From assembly GCF_900113715.1 (NCBI RefSeq), contig NZ_FOQK01000003.1, forward strand, positions 103,033 to 167,032: a stretch of 64,000 bases of DNA, given 5' to 3'. The DNA is from Pseudoselenomonas ruminantium (GTDB lineage: Bacteria > Bacillota > Negativicutes > Selenomonadales > Selenomonadaceae). The translations under genes were made by a program, and so were the position numbers. Under the pieces are notes generated by a model. That model did not search any database. It saw only the letters and a list, made by a program, of their open reading frames with translations, and was not told the origin of the DNA. Below, one piece after another: positions 3,203-14,194 of this stretch; position 1 is the stretch's first letter, and each line of letters begins with the position of its first letter.

Positions 3203-3234
3203 AATGCCAGCAGGCTGAAGCCTGCTGGCATTTT
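3201..3234. terminator. Bidirectional terminator between MFS gene and Pel-like operon
   Basis: AAAATGCCAGCAGGCT and AGCCTGCTGGCATTTT form a perfect stem with a 2-base loop and T-runs on both strands. It serves the convergent MFS and GH114 genes. Confidence 0.88.
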
Positions 3235-4228
3235 ATTTTGCACTTCCCTCACGGAAATACTGATACACATCGATGACATCCAGGAAAGCTCCGTCAAAAC
3301 CTGCCTGCATGATGGTATCCAAATAGGCCGTGGGGCTTCCGTAAAGGATTGCCTGCCACTCTTTCTGCCAGTATCTGACGCGATGGCTGCCCCAATCCTC
3401 ATTCACCCCAGCCAACCATGTAGGAGGCTCTGCCTGCCATTTCGGCCGCCAATAGGCACGATATGGCTCGGCCTCGCCGACACTCATATAGGCATAGACG
3501 AGACGGCGGCCGCCCTGCGGCTTGCGCTGCAGCCGCAAGACCTCTGCCGCTGTCAGCGGGCGGTCCTCGCAATACAGATCAATGATCAGCAAGTCGTAGG
3601 GTGACTGTTCCAGCCGTGCAAAGTATTCTTCCCGCGCGTAGTTCCCAGGATTCAGCAGCACCAGGAAATTGCGGACATCCCCCAGCCTCCGGATATCGCG
3701 GTCATTGATACCGGCTGGCTGTTCCTGCGGAATGGCATCAAGATTCCGCCGTGTGGATGCCCAGCTGATATAGCCGCAGCGGTCGTTTTTCTGCCTTGAA
3801 GCTGCCTTCTGTGCCTCCGTCTGCACATAATCGATGTTGAAGACTGGCAGCCCCGCCTGCAGCGGGACCTGCAGGGCCAGCTTGTAATAATCGCTGGTTT
3901 CCTTGCTTGTCTCCTCGCCATCCTTGAGGTCACTGCCGTAGAACACCGATTCCACCAGCTGCCCGTCAAGGCTCTGCAGCATCTTGCTGGCATTCTGCGG
4001 CGTATTGCCATCATACGGAAGGTATAATGGCGCTCCGCCATTAGCCAGCAGCCCGAATCCAGGCTTCCGGACCTGCACATAATCATGCAGGCTTCCCAGC
4101 AGGTCCACCATCGCCGTGTCATAAGCCACAGGCTCTGCCGCTTCGCTGCTTCCCAGCGCCGAGGATGCCGTGAGCAGCCCAAGCCCCAGAGCGATCTTGC
4201 GCAGTAACGCGCCCATTCTTCCAGCCAT
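3233..4228 (-). CDS. GH114-like endo-alpha-1,4-polygalactosaminidase (Pel hydrolase)
   Basis: The protein has 331 residues and an N-terminal signal peptide (hydrophobic LGLGLLTASSALGSS, cleavage likely after residue 30, AEA). The C-terminal half carries glycoside-hydrolase family 114 hallmarks: YDLLIIDLY, VYAYMSVGEAEPYR and GFDGAFLDVIDVYQYF, whose acidic residues at strand ends are the likely catalytic ones. The family cleaves alpha-1,4-galactosaminan, and the hydrolase half of Pseudomonas PelA has related activity. It is the last gene of the Pel-like operon, 15 bases after the barrel gene. The likely role is trimming or releasing polymer in the periplasm or at the surface. It carries no deacetylase domain; that job would fall to the DUF2194 protein. 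Confidence 0.82.
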   Translation of the reverse strand: MAGRMGALLRKIALGLGLLTASSALGSSEAAEPVAYDTAMVDLLGSLHDYVQVRKPGFGLLANGGAPLYLPYDGNTPQNASKMLQSLDGQLVESVFYGSDLKDGEETSKETSDYYKLALQVPLQAGLPVFNIDYVQTEAQKAASRQKNDRCGYISWASTRRNLDAIPQEQPAGINDRDIRRLGDVRNFLVLLNPGNYAREEYFARLEQSPYDLLIIDLYCEDRPLTAAEVLRLQRKPQGGRRLVYAYMSVGEAEPYRAYWRPKWQAEPPTWLAGVNEDWGSHRVRYWQKEWQAILYGSPTAYLDTIMQAGFDGAFLDVIDVYQYFREGSAK

Positions 4229-4243
4229 TGTTTTTCTCCTGTA

Positions 4244-6487
4244 TCAGAACGTGTGATTATACATCAGGCTCATATTCCAGCCATGATAGGAATCCGTGTC
4301 ATCGCCATCGATCGTGTAGGTTTCCAGCTTGGCTGCCAGTGCAGCCCGCTCATTGCAGCGATAATCATAGCCCAGCAGCACCGACTTGCTGCGGCGGCCG
4401 TTTTCCTCCGTGCCTGTCCGCCAGTTATAGCTCTGGCCATTCGTCTCGCCATACCCCAGCAGGATATAAACCGCCTGCTGCCGGTCAAACTGGTGTCGCC
4501 AGCCCAGGCCGCCATAGTAGCGCCGCATGCTGCTCGCCGTCGTCCCTTCCTGGTAACTGCCGATCAGATAATACTGCCAGGAGTCCCGTTCATCGATATC
4601 CTGATTGCCGTAGAGACGCAAAATCCAATCCTCGCCATCGTCATTGCGCCCGTCGAGAGCAATAGCCCTGTCATCCAGGACGTACTCCCTTCCCCTCTCC
4701 AAATATGAGTAGAGCTGCCTGCGATAGTACGAATGGCTGGCATTGATATGCGTCAGCTGGGCGGAGAACTGGTCGTGTTCCCCGCTGTGCCGGTACGTCA
4801 GATCCTGTCGGAACTGATTGCTGGGATCGATGCGGTCTTCTGTTTCCACATCCTGCACCCGTGACAGGTCAATCCCCCGCGCTGCGGCATAGGCACGGAC
4901 AGCATCGTAACTCAGATCCGCCGCCGACAGGCTTTTTGCCACACTGCTGTGATAGCTGTAATCGCCGCGGATGATATAGCTCAGCCGCCCGGTCAGGCTG
5001 TCGCGCCCGGTGATATGCCGGGTCACCTCGATGCCCGGCGTCACCTGCCAGCCTTCGCTGAACGAATTGTACCTGGCCAGCCCATCGGCCATCATCGCAT
5101 TCTGATGCACATTGGAAACGCCTGTCGGCACATTGACCGTCAGCAGATAATGCACGTCGTATTGCCTATGGTTGTTTCTCAGCACCATGCCCAGCGTGGT
5201 ATCCGTCCAGCCGCGTACATGGCCTTTGCGAAGGCCTGTATCCGAATCGAGCCAGCCCGTGGACAGCGAGAAATCCCACTGCTTCTCCGCCGCATAGAAG
5301 CCGATTGGCTGATAGAGCTGGTAGCCACGCTGCCCAGCCCCGCGCCAGGTATAGTATTCGAAGCCCAGGCCAGCGCCCCATCCCTCACCGAAATGCGCCA
5401 GCGAATCATCCGCCTGCTGCTTCCACAGCTGCGTGTCCTGAAGAGCCTGGGACGCTTCTGCCACATAAGCCGCCGCTTCCTGGCTCCATTTGATGCCATC
5501 GGCCACATCCTGCTGCCGCTGCTGGATATCCGTCTGCGCGTCGTCCTGCTGCCCGGTAAGATCTGCCACCCACTGCCGCGCATCGCGCTCCGCATCCTCA
5601 GCCGCCTCGCGCGCAGCCACGAGGGCATCGAGCTGCGCATCCAGCGCATCCAGTGCGGCTTCGCTTTCATCGATGGCCGCATCCAGCTCCTGCAGCCGGG
5701 CTGCCAATGGTGCCAGCTCACCGCTGCGGTCGGCCACCATGCCCGATGCCTGCCTGGCCGCATTGACCTTGGCGATGACGTCATAGAGCCGGTTCTGTTC
5801 GTAGTTGACGCTCTGCCAGGCCTGCTCGATGATAGCTTCCAGATTTTCCTGCTGCTGCTCATACGTGCGCATCTGCTCCACTACTGCCGCATAATTCCCC
5901 TGTACCGTCTGGCGGTCTGCCAGCAGCTCGCTGACAATCGTCTGCTGCGCTGAAATGTGGGGCAGGAAATCCGCAGCTGCCCGCTGGGCAGCCAAGGCCT
6001 CCTGCGTGCGGGCAGCGCTCTCGGCTTTTGCCCGTGACAATTCCTCGGTCACCCGCTGCAAGCGGCGTTCAGCTTCATCGAGCTCCTGCCGCGACGTCGC
6101 CAGTGCCGCCGCAGCATCCCGCTCAGACTGCCTTGCCTGCTGCAGAGCAGCTTCAGCCTGCACCAAGGCATCAGCGGCTTCACGCACATTGCGTTTGGCA
6201 GCTGCGAAATCACGGATGCGGTCACGTGAATCGCGCAGGGATTGCAGGGCCTCCGGCACCTCGGTGAACGTATGGACGGAGGCCGCCTCAGCAGCCACTG
6301 CTGGCAGCAGGCCAAGCGAACCAAGCGAAACCGCCGCCGCTCCCTGCCGCAGGAATTCCTGCTGCTGCATGTGCCGGCGGCGGCTGCGCGTCATGCGCAT
6401 GGCCGACTGCTCACGCAAGCGCCTGGCGGCAGCCGCCGCTTCTTTCTGAGGCTGCAAGCGTTTACGCCCCTTGCGGCTAAGCCTCAT
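4244..6487 (-). CDS. Outer-membrane protein: coiled coil plus beta-barrel, Pel export candidate
   Basis: The product has 747 residues. A very basic N-terminal stretch leads into a hydrophobic segment ending near residue 70 (LLPAVAAEAAS), consistent with a long signal peptide; initiation at an internal Met (about 30) is possible. Residues about 95-370 are almost pure charged/Ala/Gln helix, predicted coiled coil. Residues about 375-747 alternate polar and aromatic residues in strand-turn patterns (FEYYTWRGAGQRGYQLYQ, WRHQFDRQQAVYILLGYG) and end in MSLMYNHTF, a C-terminal aromatic typical of outer-membrane barrels. The start overlaps the pelG stop by four bases with GGAGGGAGG upstream, so it is translationally coupled. 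I recognise no family. By position it could replace PelB/PelC, the periplasmic TPR and outer-membrane pore of Pseudomonas; the coiled coil might span the periplasm. Confidence 0.75.
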   Translation of the reverse strand: MRLSRKGRKRLQPQKEAAAAARRLREQSAMRMTRSRRRHMQQQEFLRQGAAAVSLGSLGLLPAVAAEAASVHTFTEVPEALQSLRDSRDRIRDFAAAKRNVREAADALVQAEAALQQARQSERDAAAALATSRQELDEAERRLQRVTEELSRAKAESAARTQEALAAQRAAADFLPHISAQQTIVSELLADRQTVQGNYAAVVEQMRTYEQQQENLEAIIEQAWQSVNYEQNRLYDVIAKVNAARQASGMVADRSGELAPLAARLQELDAAIDESEAALDALDAQLDALVAAREAAEDAERDARQWVADLTGQQDDAQTDIQQRQQDVADGIKWSQEAAAYVAEASQALQDTQLWKQQADDSLAHFGEGWGAGLGFEYYTWRGAGQRGYQLYQPIGFYAAEKQWDFSLSTGWLDSDTGLRKGHVRGWTDTTLGMVLRNNHRQYDVHYLLTVNVPTGVSNVHQNAMMADGLARYNSFSEGWQVTPGIEVTRHITGRDSLTGRLSYIIRGDYSYHSSVAKSLSAADLSYDAVRAYAAARGIDLSRVQDVETEDRIDPSNQFRQDLTYRHSGEHDQFSAQLTHINASHSYYRRQLYSYLERGREYVLDDRAIALDGRNDDGEDWILRLYGNQDIDERDSWQYYLIGSYQEGTTASSMRRYYGGLGWRHQFDRQQAVYILLGYGETNGQSYNWRTGTEENGRRSKSVLLGYDYRCNERAALAAKLETYTIDGDDTDSYHGWNMSLMYNHTF

Positions 6488-7965
6488 GGCTCCTCCCTCC
6501 TCTCTCGCTCCAAATCAACATACCGCTCCCCATACAAACGCATGGCCAGCCGGGTAAGCAGACCATGTGGCGGCTGATAGAAGACAGGCTGTGAGCAGAA
6601 TACCAGATAGTTGATGCGGCTGGCAAAATGATCGAGCCGCCAGGCAGCGACCACAAAGCTTGCTGCCGCCGCCAGGAAAAAGGTGAACCCGTAGCTCTGC
6701 TCCCCCCACCAGCAAAGGCCCAAGACGCCCAGCACCAGATTGCTGGCCAAGAAGAACAATGACACCATGAGCACATCCTTCTGATAGTCAAAATAGATCA
6801 GCAGAATGTAGATGAGCTGCAGCAGTCCCGTAAAGAAGGCACCGAACAGCAGGACATTGAACATGTTGACCTGCTCATAGGTAATCCCCGCCCGCGACAG
6901 GATATAGCTGCCCAGCGCCAGGAACACCAGCGTGAACACCAGCTGCAGCTCTGCGGCATGCCGCAGCTCAAACCACAGGACATGCAACAGGTCCTTGCGC
7001 GCATCCTCGATCTGCCGGAAATTCCCCTTGCGCGTGATATGCGAGAAATAGACTGCATAACGCTGGTAAAAATTCGTCTCCACTGACACGACAAACACCA
7101 TCATGAGCGGCAGGACTGACAGCAGCGCATAGAAGGTGACCACATCATAGACCGGCGAATAGCGGAAGGTTCCCGCCACTTCGACACCCCAAGGGCCAAA
7201 CCAGATCAGGATATTGGGCAGGAACAGTCCGGCCGCATAGCTGGCAGCGATCACGAACAGCCGCCAATGGCGCTCGAAATACGGCAAGAACGCAAAGTTC
7301 ATGCCATCTTCCGGCAAGCCAAAGCAGGCAGCGATGTGCCACAGGAACAACAGGACACAAAGGGCCATGCCCATATCGACGGCCAGCAGCGCAGACTGCT
7401 CGGCCGGCAGCCAGCCTGCCCCTAGCAGCTGCGCTGCCAGCATTATACTCACCACGACGCCAGCCAGATAGCTCAGCAGCAACCGCTTGTATTTCTTGAT
7501 GGCTGTCAGGTATACGCTTTCCACCCAGGAAATCAGCAGCAGGGCAAAGAACAGATATGCGAGCCACTTCGTCAACGATGCCAGCGGTCTGCCCCATAAG
7601 AAAGCCAGCGCCAGAAGCCCCCCGAGGGCAGATAGCAGCGCCGCACTGCCAAACAGTGAAGCCGTGATATCCTTGTAACGTGCCAGCGACAGGGAATCAG
7701 CCAGATAGCGCGTAAGCACCATCGTGAAGCCGCTCGACAAGATCTGCGAGAAAATGAACGCATACACCACAGCCGCCACAAAGACCTGCACGGACTCCGC
7801 CGGCACGGCAAAGTGCCGGAACAGCAGCTGGACGGCCAGTACCATGCCCGTCAGCAAGGCAAAGGGCCCCGCCGTGATGATGGCCGAGTACGAATAAGCC
7901 CGGATATGACCAGCCGCCGTCCGGGCCGTAAAGAGTTTCTTCAGTTCGAAGCCGACGCCTGCCAT
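6484..7965 (-). CDS. pelG: PelG, polysaccharide flippase-like inner-membrane protein
   Basis: This is a 493-residue protein with about 12 transmembrane helices. The start MAGVGFELKKLFTARTA and the following SAIITAGPFALLTG match the characteristic N terminus of PelG, a member of the MOP/Wzx-like flippase superfamily, and the length is normal. PelG is thought to work with the glycosyltransferase PelF, PelD and PelE to move the growing galactosamine-rich polymer across the inner membrane. The start codon shares its A with the pelF stop (TGATG), and the stop overlaps the barrel gene start, so expression is tightly coupled. Confidence 0.9.
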   Translation of the reverse strand: MAGVGFELKKLFTARTAAGHIRAYSYSAIITAGPFALLTGMVLAVQLLFRHFAVPAESVQVFVAAVVYAFIFSQILSSGFTMVLTRYLADSLSLARYKDITASLFGSAALLSALGGLLALAFLWGRPLASLTKWLAYLFFALLLISWVESVYLTAIKKYKRLLLSYLAGVVVSIMLAAQLLGAGWLPAEQSALLAVDMGMALCVLLFLWHIAACFGLPEDGMNFAFLPYFERHWRLFVIAASYAAGLFLPNILIWFGPWGVEVAGTFRYSPVYDVVTFYALLSVLPLMMVFVVSVETNFYQRYAVYFSHITRKGNFRQIEDARKDLLHVLWFELRHAAELQLVFTLVFLALGSYILSRAGITYEQVNMFNVLLFGAFFTGLLQLIYILLIYFDYQKDVLMVSLFFLASNLVLGVLGLCWWGEQSYGFTFFLAAAASFVVAAWRLDHFASRINYLVFCSQPVFYQPPHGLLTRLAMRLYGERYVDLERERREEP

Positions 7966-9392
7966 CAGCCCTTGACCTCCTTTGCCTGCGCGTATATCCT
8001 GCGATACGCTGCCAGGAAATGTTCATACGTGTAGCCGCGCTTGACGCGCTCGTAGCCGATGCTGCCCATCTGCCGCCTGAGCGCAAAGTCACGGCCCAGC
8101 CGGACAATCTCCTTGGCCATGGCTTCAAAATCCATCGGGGCAACGATAGCCCCCGCCGCCCCGAGCGTATCCGTACTGTCGCCATAGATGAGCTCACGGC
8201 AGCAGCCGACATCCGTCGTCACAAACGGCCGATGCGCCGCCTGCCCTTCCAGCACCGCCAGCGGCTGCCCCTCACTGATGCTCGAAAGGATCATAAGATC
8301 TATCTGCGGCAGATACTTGACGATATCCACCGACCCAGTAAATGTCACATCCTCAATCCGCAGCATGGCTACGGTCTGCTGGCATAAGGCATAATATTCG
8401 GGATCTTCATCGAAGCCGCCCATGATGACCAGCCGGGCTGCGGGAATCTCCTGCTTGACGAGGAAGAAGGCCCGCAGCAGCGTGACAATATCCTTGATGG
8501 GCACAACGCGGACAACAGCTCCGAGCGTAAGCGGCCCCTCATGGGGCTGCAGTTCAGGAATCTGCGCAAAACGCTCCATATGCACGCCATTCGGCACGAT
8601 GCCGATCTTTGCCGGATCGCAGCCCAGGTCGCGCTCAATCTCGGCATTGTGCTCAAACAGCGTATAGACATGATCGGCCACCCGGTAAGACAATCTGGCC
8701 AGATTGTAGAAATACTGGATCCAGACCGACTTGAAGTCGCCCTTGGCCCAATCGCTCTTGATGATCTCCACCTCGCGCTCACGCGAGTAGATGCCATGCT
8801 CCGTGATGATGAATGGCTTATGGTAGACCTCCGCTGCCATCGCACCGATCACCCCGCAGTAGCCCGTGGCGACACTGTGATAGACATCCGCTGCTGGCAA
8901 ATCCTGCTGCAGCAGGAAGAACAGGGGCAGCAGCATCGAGCGCAGGGTCCAGAAGAAATCCGTGAAGGGCAGATACGGATAGTTCTCCTCGTATACCCGC
9001 TGGATCACATCGAAGAAATCGCTGCTCATGAAGATGTCCAGCGGGCTCTGGAACCGGCCGCGGTCACGGAAGATCACCGACAGCTCCTGGACGTTGATAG
9101 GCTTGCTGCCTGTCACCAGCTCGTAAAGCAGTTTCCGCTCAGCCGCGTTCAGGATATTCTCCCGCATTCCCTTTGACTTGAGGCTCAGGATATCATCGAG
9201 GAACTCCTCCTGCACGCCAACCACATTGGCCGGGAGCTTGTATTTGAAATCGCCGCGGTTCTTGGCCTCGGCCCCGATGGAGTAGATGAAGAACTCATGC
9301 TCCGGCAAGCCTTGTATAAGCATCTGGCACCAGGAAGATACACCGCCTACCACATAGGGATAGGACCCTTCCGTCAACAGGCAGATACGCAT
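7965..9392 (-). CDS. pelF: PelF, GT4 glycosyltransferase
   Basis: The product is a soluble 475-residue GT-B fold glycosyltransferase. It starts MRICLLTEGSYPYVVGGVSS, a loop typical of PelF, and has an acceptor-side motif FIITEHGIYSRERE. The donor-binding half contains VPIKDIVTLLRAF and the E-x7-E region SEGQPLAVLEGQ. PelF proteins polymerise the Pel backbone from UDP-sugars on the cytoplasmic face, docking to PelD/PelE/PelG. Both ends overlap neighbouring genes by one base (TGATG). The length matches the family, about 480-510 residues. Confidence 0.92.
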   Translation of the reverse strand: MRICLLTEGSYPYVVGGVSSWCQMLIQGLPEHEFFIYSIGAEAKNRGDFKYKLPANVVGVQEEFLDDILSLKSKGMRENILNAAERKLLYELVTGSKPINVQELSVIFRDRGRFQSPLDIFMSSDFFDVIQRVYEENYPYLPFTDFFWTLRSMLLPLFFLLQQDLPAADVYHSVATGYCGVIGAMAAEVYHKPFIITEHGIYSREREVEIIKSDWAKGDFKSVWIQYFYNLARLSYRVADHVYTLFEHNAEIERDLGCDPAKIGIVPNGVHMERFAQIPELQPHEGPLTLGAVVRVVPIKDIVTLLRAFFLVKQEIPAARLVIMGGFDEDPEYYALCQQTVAMLRIEDVTFTGSVDIVKYLPQIDLMILSSISEGQPLAVLEGQAAHRPFVTTDVGCCRELIYGDSTDTLGAAGAIVAPMDFEAMAKEIVRLGRDFALRRQMGSIGYERVKRGYTYEHFLAAYRRIYAQAKEVKG

Positions 9393-11215
9393 CAGTTCTC
9401 CTCCTTCCAGAATAATACCGCTTTGGCAGACTGCGTCTCAATCATATAGCAGTCCGTGCCAATGCGCGTGAACTCCGCCCCCTCCGCATGACCGATGGTC
9501 TTATCCGTATGCAGGATGAACCGCAGCGGATGACCAAAATCCCAGCAATGCAGCACCAGCCGGTCCGTGAGCCGCTGCACGCGGTAGTCCATGTCGAGAT
9601 AATCATCCAGATAGGCTGCACACTCCGAATCCGTCACGGGGCGCAGCCAATCATAGCGCGCCTGCATCTCTGCCAAGAACGCCCGGAACCCCTTTTCCAT
9701 CATTGCCCAGCTTTTATCCTGGCTCTCCACATAGAACATCTCATCGGGATGGACGAAATGGGAAAAACAACCGATATAGTTGATGACACTGATCTGCTCA
9801 TAGATGCTCTGCCGGCTCGGCATATAGCCGGCAGAAGTGCGCGGGATATCATAGGTGCCATCCCCCTGGCGGTCAAAATCCGTGATATACGCCTTATCGG
9901 GAGCTACACCATCAAACAGGGAGGAAAAGATCCGCACCTCGGGGAACACCTGCCGTATCGCCGCCTTGCCCTCAGGGCTCAGGATATCCGATGGCGGCAC
10001 ATAGGCCCGGATCTCATAACCGGGATAGGCATCCTCTACATAGCGCCGAAGCTCCTGCAGCGACTCAGCCATGGCCTGCTGGCTGGGCCAGGGCTGGTAA
10101 TCAAGATTCCCCTGGTTATAGCCCGCTGGTGCCAGCGACTGATGGTTATAGCCGTGGATGCCCAGCTCGCCGCCCATGTCCAGCAGCTCCCGTCCGTAGA
10201 TGATGAAATCATTGCGGATACGGCTGCCAGCCGGCGGCACAAAGGGCCCCTCGACCTGATTGCCATACGACTCGATGATGAGCCCCGTATACTTCAGATT
10301 GAAATCCTTGGCTGCCTGCCGCATATACGGCCACCAACGCTGGCGATAGAAATCCTCCGTCGTCAGCTGCATTTCCGCATAGATCTTGGGATTGGTGCCC
10401 TCGGGGATCGGTGCAGGGAAATCATCGATGAAGACCAGCTTCGTCCCCAGGACGGGATAGATATCCTCCGCCCCGCAGTGGGCGATGACAGCCGTCAGCA
10501 GTCCCGCATTCGTCTTGTCGTCGCGCACACTGCCATTGTAGACCAGGTACTTCCCCTTGCCGGCCGCATGCTCCCAGAGCAGCGGCTGGCCGTCTGCCGC
10601 ACTGATATGCAGCGTGGCATCGCCGCTCAACTGCGCCTCGGTGCAGACCGTATCATAGACCGTCCCCTCGCCAAAGGAAGCCCCCTGGCCGCCAAACAGG
10701 AAATCCGTCCAGAGATGGATGCCACGGACTGTCTTGCCGCCGCCCAACCGCGCAACGCCCAGCTCCGCGAGCAAGTCCTGCGGCAGACTGCCGTCTGCCG
10801 CTTCCAGCCGCATCAGAACAGCTACGGTTCCACCTGCCGCCGCATACTGGCGCACCGCTGGCAGGCAGGCCACGCGCTCGAGGCTGCCTGACGCCAACAG
10901 GACACCACGGTAGCCGCCGTCAACGGCCGTATCATCCGCATAGATGGAGGCGATGTCGCAGTCCTTCTTCTGCTGCGCCAAGATCTTTGCCAACCGATGG
11001 CGGGCAAACACGCTGCCCACATCCCGCGGGTCATAGAGGATGAGATATCTGTCCCGCGCCTGTGCCACCGCATCCCCCTGCTCCTCCATCGCTGGCAGCA
11101 GCGCCAGATTCCGCAGCGGTGACAGGTGCAGGAAGCCATCCATGCGGCTGAACTGGAAAAACACGCCCAGCACCATGACCAGGGCGAACACCAGCGCAAT
11201 GCCCCGTTTATCCAT
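9392..11215 (-). CDS. DUF2194 protein with CE4-like deacetylase domain (PelA deacetylase counterpart)
   Basis: The protein has 607 residues and is anchored by one N-terminal transmembrane helix (about residues 5-22). Residues about 50-260 form a Rossmann-like, possibly glutamine-amidotransferase-like, region. From about 270 on there is a polysaccharide-deacetylase-type barrel with LVFIDDFPAPIPEG (paired Asp motif) and LGIHGYNHQSL (His-x3-His metal site). This matches DUF2194 proteins found in Pel-like clusters, where a deacetylase converts part of the GalNAc polymer to cationic GalN. It lacks the fused glycosidase of Pseudomonas PelA; the GH114 gene at the operon end supplies it. The start overlaps the upstream stop by eight bases with GGAGGT before it. 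Confidence 0.82.
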   Translation of the reverse strand: MDKRGIALVFALVMVLGVFFQFSRMDGFLHLSPLRNLALLPAMEEQGDAVAQARDRYLILYDPRDVGSVFARHRLAKILAQQKKDCDIASIYADDTAVDGGYRGVLLASGSLERVACLPAVRQYAAAGGTVAVLMRLEAADGSLPQDLLAELGVARLGGGKTVRGIHLWTDFLFGGQGASFGEGTVYDTVCTEAQLSGDATLHISAADGQPLLWEHAAGKGKYLVYNGSVRDDKTNAGLLTAVIAHCGAEDIYPVLGTKLVFIDDFPAPIPEGTNPKIYAEMQLTTEDFYRQRWWPYMRQAAKDFNLKYTGLIIESYGNQVEGPFVPPAGSRIRNDFIIYGRELLDMGGELGIHGYNHQSLAPAGYNQGNLDYQPWPSQQAMAESLQELRRYVEDAYPGYEIRAYVPPSDILSPEGKAAIRQVFPEVRIFSSLFDGVAPDKAYITDFDRQGDGTYDIPRTSAGYMPSRQSIYEQISVINYIGCFSHFVHPDEMFYVESQDKSWAMMEKGFRAFLAEMQARYDWLRPVTDSECAAYLDDYLDMDYRVQRLTDRLVLHCWDFGHPLRFILHTDKTIGHAEGAEFTRIGTDCYMIETQSAKAVLFWKEEN

Positions 11216-12107
11216 TGCTGCGTACCTCCTTATCCCAAAAACGGATCACCTGCAGCGCCTTCTGCGACAACTCCAGCGGCGAAGCCTTCAGCGCCTGGAT
11301 TGCCCGCTGCAGGTCCTCCGGCCTGTGCTCCGCCTGGTAAAGCTCGATATACATGAGATACGATTCTTCCCGCGCAGGGAAACGCAGCATCATCTGCTCG
11401 CAGACCTGCTCCGCCGTGCGGAAATTGCGTATATCGAGGAGCTGCCCGATCTCCTCGCAGTAATAGCCGATATTGTCCGGCCGCAGCGCCAGCAGGCGAT
11501 CCAGCAAGCCGATATAGTCCCCCTGCTTCTTGCGCCAGGTCACATGATCGATGAACTCCCGCTGCGACAGGTATTCGCGCAGCATCTCCACGTATTCCTC
11601 GAGCAGCACCACATCTTCTTCCCGCTGGCCGGAAAGCACGGCACTCTCCTGCTCGAAAAGCTTCGTCTCAAGCTTTTCCATACGCGTCGTCAGCATCGAT
11701 ACCGCATAATAGGCAATCTCCCGGTCACGGTCATGCATGGCCATCTGCAGGATATTCTGGTTATCGACGACCGACTGCTTGATGGCCTCCGTGAAGAAAT
11801 GGCGCTTCTGCTGCACATCGCTGACCAGGAAGGCGTCATTGAGCGGGATGATATCACGATCCAATTCCGTGCCGCGGAAGAACGCCTCGCCCGCATCTTC
11901 CTGCTCCGGTACCCGCTCCCGATACAGATGCAGCAGCCGGCAGCCAAGCTTGAACAGCAGCAGGATGACCAGCCCGCAGAATGGCAGGCAGAGCACCAGC
12001 ACAGACTCCGCCAAGGCCCGCGGCAGGGAATGGGCCCGCCAGTCGAGCCAGAAGAACGCCGCTGTGAGCAGCAGATGGCACAGGACTGCCAACGAAAACA
12101 TACTCAT
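11208..12107 (-). CDS. pelE: PelE-like membrane/helical-repeat protein
   Basis: This 299-residue protein has two N-terminal transmembrane helices (about residues 5-20 and 35-55) followed by an all-helical cytoplasmic region. The region between about 190 and 285 reads like TPR-type helical pairs (YIGLLDRLLALRPDNIGYY, FRTAEQVCEQMMLRFPAREE). PelE proteins have this plan: membrane anchor plus TPRs that hold PelF to PelD and PelG. Assignment rests mostly on architecture and position between the PelD-like and deacetylase genes, since PelE sequences diverge strongly. The start overlaps the upstream stop (ATGA) and is preceded by GAGGGG. Confidence 0.72.
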   Translation of the reverse strand: MSMFSLAVLCHLLLTAAFFWLDWRAHSLPRALAESVLVLCLPFCGLVILLLFKLGCRLLHLYRERVPEQEDAGEAFFRGTELDRDIIPLNDAFLVSDVQQKRHFFTEAIKQSVVDNQNILQMAMHDRDREIAYYAVSMLTTRMEKLETKLFEQESAVLSGQREEDVVLLEEYVEMLREYLSQREFIDHVTWRKKQGDYIGLLDRLLALRPDNIGYYCEEIGQLLDIRNFRTAEQVCEQMMLRFPAREESYLMYIELYQAEHRPEDLQRAIQALKASPLELSQKALQVIRFWDKEVRSNG

Positions 12108-14194
12108 ACTATCCCCTCATCGACCTGGGTCTGCAGCCCGCGCTTCTGTAAGCGGCGCTGGACCATCGCCGTCACCTCTTCATCTGCATCCGGCAGCAGC
12201 ACATAGACGCGATCCGCCCGCAAGCCCACGAAGTCCTCATTGCGGATGGCGCCGGACAGCCGGCTGTCCAGCTCCTGGTAGTCCAGGCCTGTCATGTCCA
12301 CCCGCAGCATGGCCAGCGGCAGATCTCCCTGCAGCTGGCGGCGCGCCTTGAGCTCCGCGATAATCTTGTCAAACTCCTTGGCCTGCAGGATACGGGTATT
12401 CCCCCAGTAGCGCCGCGCCTGGATTTCGCTCTCATACTGATAGGCTCGTCCCATCGACGACGATATCAGGCGCACCGTGATCGACAGCAGATTCTGCTGA
12501 TGCAGGCTCCACTGCTCGAACCGCATGCCAAAGACTTCTACGACAGCAATGACCCTTCCCTGATGGATGATGGGCGCCGCCATATCTGGCGCATCCGCCG
12601 CCAGTTCCCGATTGATATAGACCGCCTTCTCGTGTAGCACGGATTGCAGATAGCGGCAATCCGCCACGCGCAAAGAGCGCGGCAGCTGGTTTGCCAGCCG
12701 CCCCAGCCGTACCTTCTGCCGCAGATACCGCTGGTCATTGCCCACCACGTAGACGGCGATGTCCCGGACATCCAGCACCTGCGCCGTGACAGCAGCCGCC
12801 TGAGTGAAGATATTCTCGGGCTCCACACTGTCAAGATTGCGGATGATCCGGTAGAGGCGTCCGATGCTGTCATCGGAATTCACGATCTGGTGGTACAGAT
12901 GATTCTTGACCTCCATATTCTCATCGTATAGGCGCTTCAAGACAGCCAGCCTTTCCTCATGCTGGGCTGCCTGCCAATGGGCTGCCTCCCGTTCATACCT
13001 GCGGCTGTCAGCCACATAGCCGGTGAGTACCGCAACCAACAGATACGTGATCAGATGCAGGAGCATCGCCGGAACATAGAACAGCCCCACGAGCGTGCTG
13101 CCCTGATGCAGCATGGCGCCAAGCAGCAGCACCGACGACAGCGCCATCGCAAGCAGCGCCTGCTGCTTGCCATAGAGAAGCCCCATGGCACCGATATAGA
13201 CAAAATTCATATCAAAGGGGACAATCGGATTCACCGGCTGCCCCTGCTGAAAGGCCATGACTGCCCCCATCAAGGCAAAGCCAGCCAGGTTCTCTGCCAA
13301 CGGGATGGCCCGCCGCAGCCTTTGCTGCCACTGCAGCCGCCTGCCAGTGTTTGCCAGCTCCCGCTGCTGGTCAGCGGCTGCTGCCTGCACATACTGCCAG
13401 GTGAGCTGCAAGCCTTCGGCCAGCGGATATTTCGGCCGCCAGCCCAGCTCGGATGCCGCTTTCTGCTCTGCCATGCCGCCCATCGCATAATCCTCCGCAG
13501 AATCTGCATCGATTGCCAGCGGACAAGCCTTCCCCGTTGCCTGGCGCACCAGCTGCGGCAGCTCTTCCCAGCGGACTGCCTCGCCCGCTGCCAGGCTGAT
13601 GGTTCCGCCCGTGTAGCGGCGGGCAACGGCCCGGTAAAGCCCATATACCGCATCCTCGCGGTATAGGAACGCCCGCTTCCCCGGCCGCCGGCTCGTCACC
13701 ACCCCGCCCTGCGCCAGCGAATACAGCGCGCGGCTCAGGAAGCCATCCTGCTTGCGGCAGCCTGGGCCATAGACCTCGGGCAGCCGCACGATAGCAAAGC
13801 CGCAGCCTGTGACGTCCGCCCAGCCACGCCCCATGCGTTCCGCCATGGCAGCCACCTCGCTCAAGGGGCGCTGCCCTTCAGCCAGTGGCTCGGCCAGCGT
13901 CGACGACACCAAATACACCTGCGTGACACCAGCCTGCCAGCCAGCCTGCAGGACATGCAGGAAATCCTGCAGCGCCTTGATGCCTGGCTCGCCAGTCAGA
14001 GCCACATCAAGCGCATAGACGAGCACAGGGATATTGTGAATCTTGATGACCTCTTCGGATGCTGGCTTATCCGCCTCCCACACAAAGGTCTGCCAGCCCT
14101 CTTTCGTAAACACCTGCCGCAACTCCGTCTGCCAGAACAGTCCCTGACCGGCAAAAACGATCTTCTTGCGGATATCCTTGCGATCTGCCGCCAT
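12104..14194 (-). CDS. pelD: PelD-like c-di-GMP receptor fused to an N-terminal epimerase-like domain
   Basis: The protein has 696 residues. Residues 1 to about 270 resemble an extended short-chain dehydrogenase/NDP-sugar epimerase (VYLVSSTLAEPL, VRLPEVYGPGCRKQDGFLS), but the nucleotide loop reads FAGQGLFWQ rather than GxxGxxG and I see no YxxxK, so activity is doubtful. About 295-405 holds four membrane helices. About 410-595 is a coiled helix and GAF domain. About 600-696 is a degenerate GGDEF domain in which IRNED keeps the RxxD inhibitory c-di-GMP site while the catalytic signature is ADRVY. Membrane-GAF-degenerate GGDEF is exactly the PelD plan; PelD binds c-di-GMP and switches on synthesis. 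The epimerase domain recalls PelX-type UDP-GlcNAc C4-epimerases linked to other pel loci. First gene of the cluster, 43 bases after holA. Confidence 0.85.
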   Translation of the reverse strand: MAADRKDIRKKIVFAGQGLFWQTELRQVFTKEGWQTFVWEADKPASEEVIKIHNIPVLVYALDVALTGEPGIKALQDFLHVLQAGWQAGVTQVYLVSSTLAEPLAEGQRPLSEVAAMAERMGRGWADVTGCGFAIVRLPEVYGPGCRKQDGFLSRALYSLAQGGVVTSRRPGKRAFLYREDAVYGLYRAVARRYTGGTISLAAGEAVRWEELPQLVRQATGKACPLAIDADSAEDYAMGGMAEQKAASELGWRPKYPLAEGLQLTWQYVQAAAADQQRELANTGRRLQWQQRLRRAIPLAENLAGFALMGAVMAFQQGQPVNPIVPFDMNFVYIGAMGLLYGKQQALLAMALSSVLLLGAMLHQGSTLVGLFYVPAMLLHLITYLLVAVLTGYVADSRRYEREAAHWQAAQHEERLAVLKRLYDENMEVKNHLYHQIVNSDDSIGRLYRIIRNLDSVEPENIFTQAAAVTAQVLDVRDIAVYVVGNDQRYLRQKVRLGRLANQLPRSLRVADCRYLQSVLHEKAVYINRELAADAPDMAAPIIHQGRVIAVVEVFGMRFEQWSLHQQNLLSITVRLISSSMGRAYQYESEIQARRYWGNTRILQAKEFDKIIAELKARRQLQGDLPLAMLRVDMTGLDYQELDSRLSGAIRNEDFVGLRADRVYVLLPDADEEVTAMVQRRLQKRGLQTQVDEGIV

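Follow-up and report, generated by a model that had tools for sequence, protein, structure and literature searches.

Pel-like secretion systems and the coil-barrel gene

Outer-membrane barrels are a known kind of component of synthase-dependent polysaccharide systems. In Pseudomonas aeruginosa, PelB combines tetratricopeptide repeats (TPRs) with a barrel of 16 strands and works with a PelC ring, and a negatively charged interior suits it to the cationic polymer; the barrels of BcsC and PgaA also have 16 strands (PMC12141448). The periplasmic parts of BcsC and PgaA consist of TPRs as well. Gram-positive pelDEADAFG operons encode an epimerase-PelD, PelE, a deacetylase-only PelA, PelF and PelG (PMC7112168), and their monoderm hosts need no outer-membrane part. 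In contrast, a Pel-like operon in a 64,000-nucleotide stretch of the Pseudoselenomonas ruminantium contig NZ_FOQK01000003.1 (here called the window) continues after pelG with two further genes, one for a GH114 protein and one for a protein that we call the coil-barrel protein (CB). Without these two genes, the operon has the gene set of the Gram-positive pelDEADAFG type (PMC7112168). CB is predicted to join a periplasmic coiled coil to an outer-membrane barrel, and probably provides the exit route for the polymer of the neighbouring Pel-like synthase.

Seven genes in the same orientation (14194..3233), all with closed frames that start with ATG, make up the operon, with CB in sixth place: PelD-like, PelE-like, DUF2194, PelF, PelG, CB, GH114. 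An ATGA motif, preceded by a GGAGG-type site, combines the CB start with the pelG stop, and the GH114 gene begins 15 bases past the CB gene. PelF, PelG and the DUF2194 and GH114 proteins are assigned to a Pel synthesis operon by profile, the PelD- and PelE-like proteins by place and weak domains. The original prediction of a 747-residue frame ending in Phe, coupled to a Pel-like operon, is thus confirmed, on the minus strand. Neither Pfam nor NCBIfam has a match to CB over cut-off, and none of the seven operon genes is of the PelB type or encodes a PelC lipoprotein.

In the open-licence PMC literature, we found neither a description of the CB protein nor an account of the route by which synthase-made polysaccharides cross the outer membrane of diderm Firmicutes. 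Related articles mention PelF and PelG homologues in Selenomonas (PMC13339959) and report on the outer-membrane proteome of Veillonella (PMC5491611). Within the scope of these searches, neither a coil that stands in for the TPRs nor a family shared among synthases is known.

Predicted structure

The AlphaFold2 model of full-length CB (pLDDT 79.6, pTM 0.62) contains two long helices and a C-terminal barrel. Helices span residues 73-226, 234-247 and 255-364, the strands lie within residues 369-746, and no folded part separates the signal from the coil. Residues 360-747 modelled alone reach a pLDDT of 89.3 and a pTM of 0.84. The heptad-period power was matched by 7/2000 shuffles for residues 73-226 and by 26/2000 for residues 255-364; for residues 150-226 taken alone, it was matched by 296/2000. 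The barrel is predicted to be closed, and the last residue is F, L, I, M, W or Y in 29/29 family proteins compared. The models thus agree with the long coiled coil and the C-terminal outer-membrane barrel that had been proposed from the sequence, and give a barrel rather than a soluble domain. CB would differ from PelB in having a coil, and 18 strands by our reading of the model instead of 16 (PMC12141448), and from BcsC and PgaA in having long unbroken helices instead of TPRs.

The fold matches of the barrel are outer-membrane barrels, with PelB, BcsC and AlgE among them and none singled out. A fold search intended to single out PelB or BcsC was dropped, because large outer-membrane barrels tie. 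A PDB sequence search with the barrel gave nothing convincing, and one with the window protein alone gave weak coil and unrelated matches; with the CB profile, coiled-coil proteins were among the matches listed.

Linkage to pelG

CB and PelG were counted in a family sample of 189 genomes and in a class sample, for which 250 genomes were drawn and later 380 with a broader model (A2). Two PelG matches under the cut-off (G136, G338) and six coil-only CB matches (G322, G378, G350, G310, G368, G317) were left out beforehand. CB matches 53 of the family genomes, and PelG also 53, of which 52 are over cut-off. Both are present in 51 genomes, PelG alone in 1, CB alone in 2 and neither in 135 (Fisher p 1.5e-42, shared ancestry ignored). 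In the 250 class genomes, PelG has 37 matches, 35 over cut-off, and the A1 model of CB has 47, some in the coil only.

In the combined samples, CB is present in 57 of the 58 genomes with PelG over cut-off. In 54/58 it follows pelG directly and in the same orientation, with at most 631 bases between match ends; genes reported in several pieces were mostly entered by a single main piece per genome. The expectation that the same architecture would be found beside pelG in other Negativicutes, and not consistently away from pel genes, was thus largely borne out. Among the four exceptions, the genome without a CB match (G152) has a contig that ends 52 bases past pelG, and in G125 DUF2194 and GH114 genes stand between pelG and CB; the other two are taken up below. 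The A2 model matches 73/380 class genomes, or 67 once the six coil-only matches are set aside. These 67 include G010, where a contig end cuts CB after the coil, and G379, where an additional Pel operon, again with pelG followed by CB, raises the number of PelG-bearing genomes to 58/67.

One genome, G198, encodes PelG and CB in a single 1135-residue open frame (L114 9171-12578). A signal-like stretch marks the junction, and the joined frame may be a real fusion or a sequence error. For a scan of named organisms, alignments A2 and A3 were too diverse, and A4 gave two loci. At a contig edge of a metagenome-assembled genome labelled Pseudomonadota (L126 229-561), about 110 residues resemble the last barrel strands, which could reflect a relative outside the class or misbinning.

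CB copies beside other synthases

Nine of the 67 genomes show no PelG (two from the family sample, seven from the class sample, with both class scans taken as the same 250 genomes). The neighbours of CB were read in these nine and at the second CB copy of G198. Seven CB copies occur in three non-Pel kinds of locus. In G233 and G245, CB is accompanied by BcsB (1.4e-42 and 2.1e-49), a GT2 protein and a DUF2334 protein. In G352, G312 and G236, it accompanies GT2 proteins that are 59 to 93% identical among them, and deacetylase-like proteins whose Pfam match is over cut-off in G352 and G312 and below it in G236. The second copies of G312 and G198 stand with a cellulose-synthase-like GT2 protein with PilZ and an MBOAT protein, in G198 additionally with an AlgX-like protein. 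The cellulose-synthase-like protein of G198 has matches in 3/351 class genomes (G198, G312 and G235), all with CB; in G235, the synthase and CB are on different contigs, with CB at a contig edge.

At the GT2/deacetylase loci of G312 and G352, the deacetylase-like gene and CB are separated by a frame on the opposite strand. This frame encodes about 330 residues, is 64% identical between the two genomes and has no Pfam match. After CB comes a second, related protein, likewise without a Pfam match.

Shared motifs appear when the barrels of CB copies from different loci are aligned. A tree built from 29 barrels unites the cellulose-type with the BcsB-type copies in one clade (99/98); the larger group around this clade includes Pel-linked copies and, at other positions, the copies of the GT2/deacetylase-like kind. 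The tree was midpoint-rooted, has several long branches, and does not show the direction of change; its simplest reading would be more than one change of synthase partner. In Negativicutes, CB proteins likely work with cellulose-type and other GT2-type synthases too, in the role that PelB and BcsC fill in Proteobacteria. The distinct export solution for diderm Firmicutes that had been proposed is therefore tied to Pel, but not specific to it.

Other exporters in the same genomes

Exporter profiles were run against 67 genomes, namely the 58 with PelG over cut-off and the nine without PelG; G379 is not in this set. PF24604 (PelB barrel) matches neither the window protein nor any of the 67 genomes. 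None of 14 named control genomes matched it, and in a control search it found a divergent gene in the PelB position on an Azospirillum plasmid at 24.2 bits, below cut-off. PF05420 (BCSC_C, BcsC barrel) also gave no match in the window protein and 0/67 genomes, and it matches the E. coli control. TPR families have no match in the window protein at E up to 0.1. PF11684 (PelC) matches 23/189 family genomes, one over cut-off (G120), and 0/14 controls, and it missed the Azospirillum PelC-position gene. Because it is such a poor probe, replacement of PelC is judged from the operon gene list only. Of the claim that the operon has neither PelB nor PelC, the first half is borne out by the lack of a PelB match.

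CB is not the sole exporter type in the class, because PgaA-type TPR proteins with PgaB partners occur in genomes that have CB. PF21197 (PgaA) matches 6/67 genomes, two over cut-off. In G145, a protein with TPRs and a PgaA barrel adjoins a GHL13-deacetylase (PgaB-like) and a GT2 protein, and in G173 a similar TPR protein, below the PgaA cut-off, adjoins a GHL13-deacetylase. In each of these genomes, CB is also present with Pel. Judging by these gene sets, CB appears to replace some TPR exporters in the class, not all, which narrows the original idea of a distinct solution.

In the plasmid-borne Pel operon of Cetobacterium somerae (L128 3785-13019), there is no PelB match; its PelG has 703 residues, about 240 of them past the Pfam match, and is followed by a 305-residue protein without a Pfam match.

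Feature coordinates

The Arg-rich residues 1-47 of CB are partly repeated (R-M-S/T-R type) and far longer than an ordinary signal-peptide start. Such a stretch ahead of the hydrophobic segment is common to many same-family CB copies (also L118, L123 and P0015).

Table 1. Positions of CB, its parts and its operon neighbours in the window, and of features at related loci
Feature	Locus	Positions	Strand	Evidence or remark
CB gene	window	4244..6487	minus	747 residues, closed open reading frame, last residue Phe
CB residues 1-47	window	6347..6487	minus	Arg-rich stretch ahead of hydrophobic segment; read from sequence, seen in relatives
CB residues 48-69	window	6281..6346	minus	likely signal sequence, by reading of sequence alone
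CB residues 73-364	window	5396..6271	minus	predicted long helices (coiled coil); model and heptad test
CB residues 369-746	window	4250..5383	minus	predicted outer-membrane beta barrel, 18 strands by reading of model
pelG	window	6484..7965	minus	PF16933 4e-124
pelF	window	7965..9392	minus	NF038011 (NCBIfam) 1.3e-112
DUF2194 gene, PelA-deacetylase-like	window	9392..11215	minus	PF09960 5.9e-115; weak DUF2334; role by analogy with PMC7112168
pelE-like gene	window	11208..12107	minus	named by operon place; sub-threshold TPR match only
pelD-like gene, epimerase-like N-terminus and GAF	window	12104..14194	minus	PF01370 8.4e-05, PF01590 8.7e-05; operon place
GH114 gene, PelA-hydrolase-like	window	3233..4228	minus	PF03537 1.8e-16
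Opposite-strand frame near CB	L110	7318-8310	minus
Opposite-strand frame near CB	L112	10277-11263	plus
TPR and PgaA-type barrel	L138	4771-9911		G145; next to a GHL13-deacetylase, with a GT2 protein
TPR and PgaA-type barrel	L131	2-3492		G173; next to a GHL13-deacetylase

Alternative explanations

Several observations weigh against a role of CB as the polymer exit. The fold of CB ties with those of porins, CymA, CdiB and BamA and is thus undiscriminating, and PelB is not among the 50 Foldseek matches listed for the barrel alone. In-out alternation on the assigned strands is weak (216/5000 shuffles). Two Pel genomes, G120 and G184, carry CB on another contig than pelG, unlinked to it. No recognised synthase stands beside CB in G187, G189 and G042, where no genome-wide GT2 search was made; the G042 copy sits on a 4.8 kb contig. 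Pore charge was considered as a sign of a cationic substrate and dropped. The net charge of the barrel is -10 in the window protein, +18 and +10 in the two cellulose-type copies, and -19 to +2 in Pel-linked copies, and the inward-facing charge counts overlap. The evidence from charge is mixed, and barrel charge does not cleanly track a cationic polymer as originally named.

The main rival explanation is that CB is an envelope-spanning scaffold or tether of the OmpM kind, which places the synthase or spaces the membranes, while the polymer exits by another barrel. A long coil followed by a barrel is the plan of OmpM in the same class of diderm Firmicutes (PMC10628300), and CB copies without a nearby synthase exist. 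The G042 copy, moreover, adjoins a protein read as OmpM-like. However, CB is linked almost completely to several kinds of polymer synthase, and the PelB and BcsC models find no other exporter for Pel or cellulose. OmpM is a trimeric porin of 16 strands that carries an SLH domain, whereas CB accompanies polymer synthases and no SLH match was found in the window protein or in 24 members. The SLH test is a soft one, since Pfam gave none for the OmpM-like protein either. Taken together, we consider the tether unlikely.

In G042, the protein read as OmpM-like is followed by a UDP-sugar dehydrogenase beside CB (L117 1-2686), and such a pair also stands beside the pga-type operon of G145 (L138 10412-13493).

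It is more doubtful still that CB is a very divergent relative of PelB or BcsC that lost its TPRs and gained a coil, and not a separate family. The general barrel fold and the operon role are the same, and old common descent of the barrels would be compatible with this origin. Against it, the window protein has no PF24604, PF05420 or TPR profile match, and these models are not among the families matched by the 24 members; the barrel also has 18 strands by reading, compared with 16 in PelB, BcsC and PgaA (PMC12141448). That CB is an uptake porin or adhesin merely sharing these loci is very improbable given its constant place after pelG and its recurrence with other synthases, even though the best fold matches of its barrel include porins and FadL-type channels.

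Proposed mechanism and implications

If CB is the exit route, PelF would polymerise the chain, and PelD, PelE and PelG would pass it over the inner membrane. In the periplasm, the GH114 and DUF2194 proteins may trim and partly deacetylate the polymer. The coil would then guide it along or beside itself, taking the role of the PelB TPRs and bridging toward the synthase, and the barrel would release it. The analysis shows the gene, where it lies in the operon, its family and which neighbours recur; coil, barrel and strand number are predictions. Outer-membrane localisation, contact of the coil with the synthase, conduction of the polymer and the export itself are inferred, as the export role was in the original prediction. 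A wider proposal, which we rate as an even chance, is that in Negativicutes a single modular coil-barrel exporter family serves several unrelated synthases. Its coil would couple the inner-membrane synthase to the barrel without a TPR scaffold or a PelC ring, and the barrel would have moved among Pel, cellulose-type and GT2-type loci in evolution.

The Negativicutes, having an outer membrane, would need an exporter for synthase-made polymers. If CB is this exporter, then several polymers that differ in chemistry share a single exporter family, and the export step would be separate from the type of synthase.
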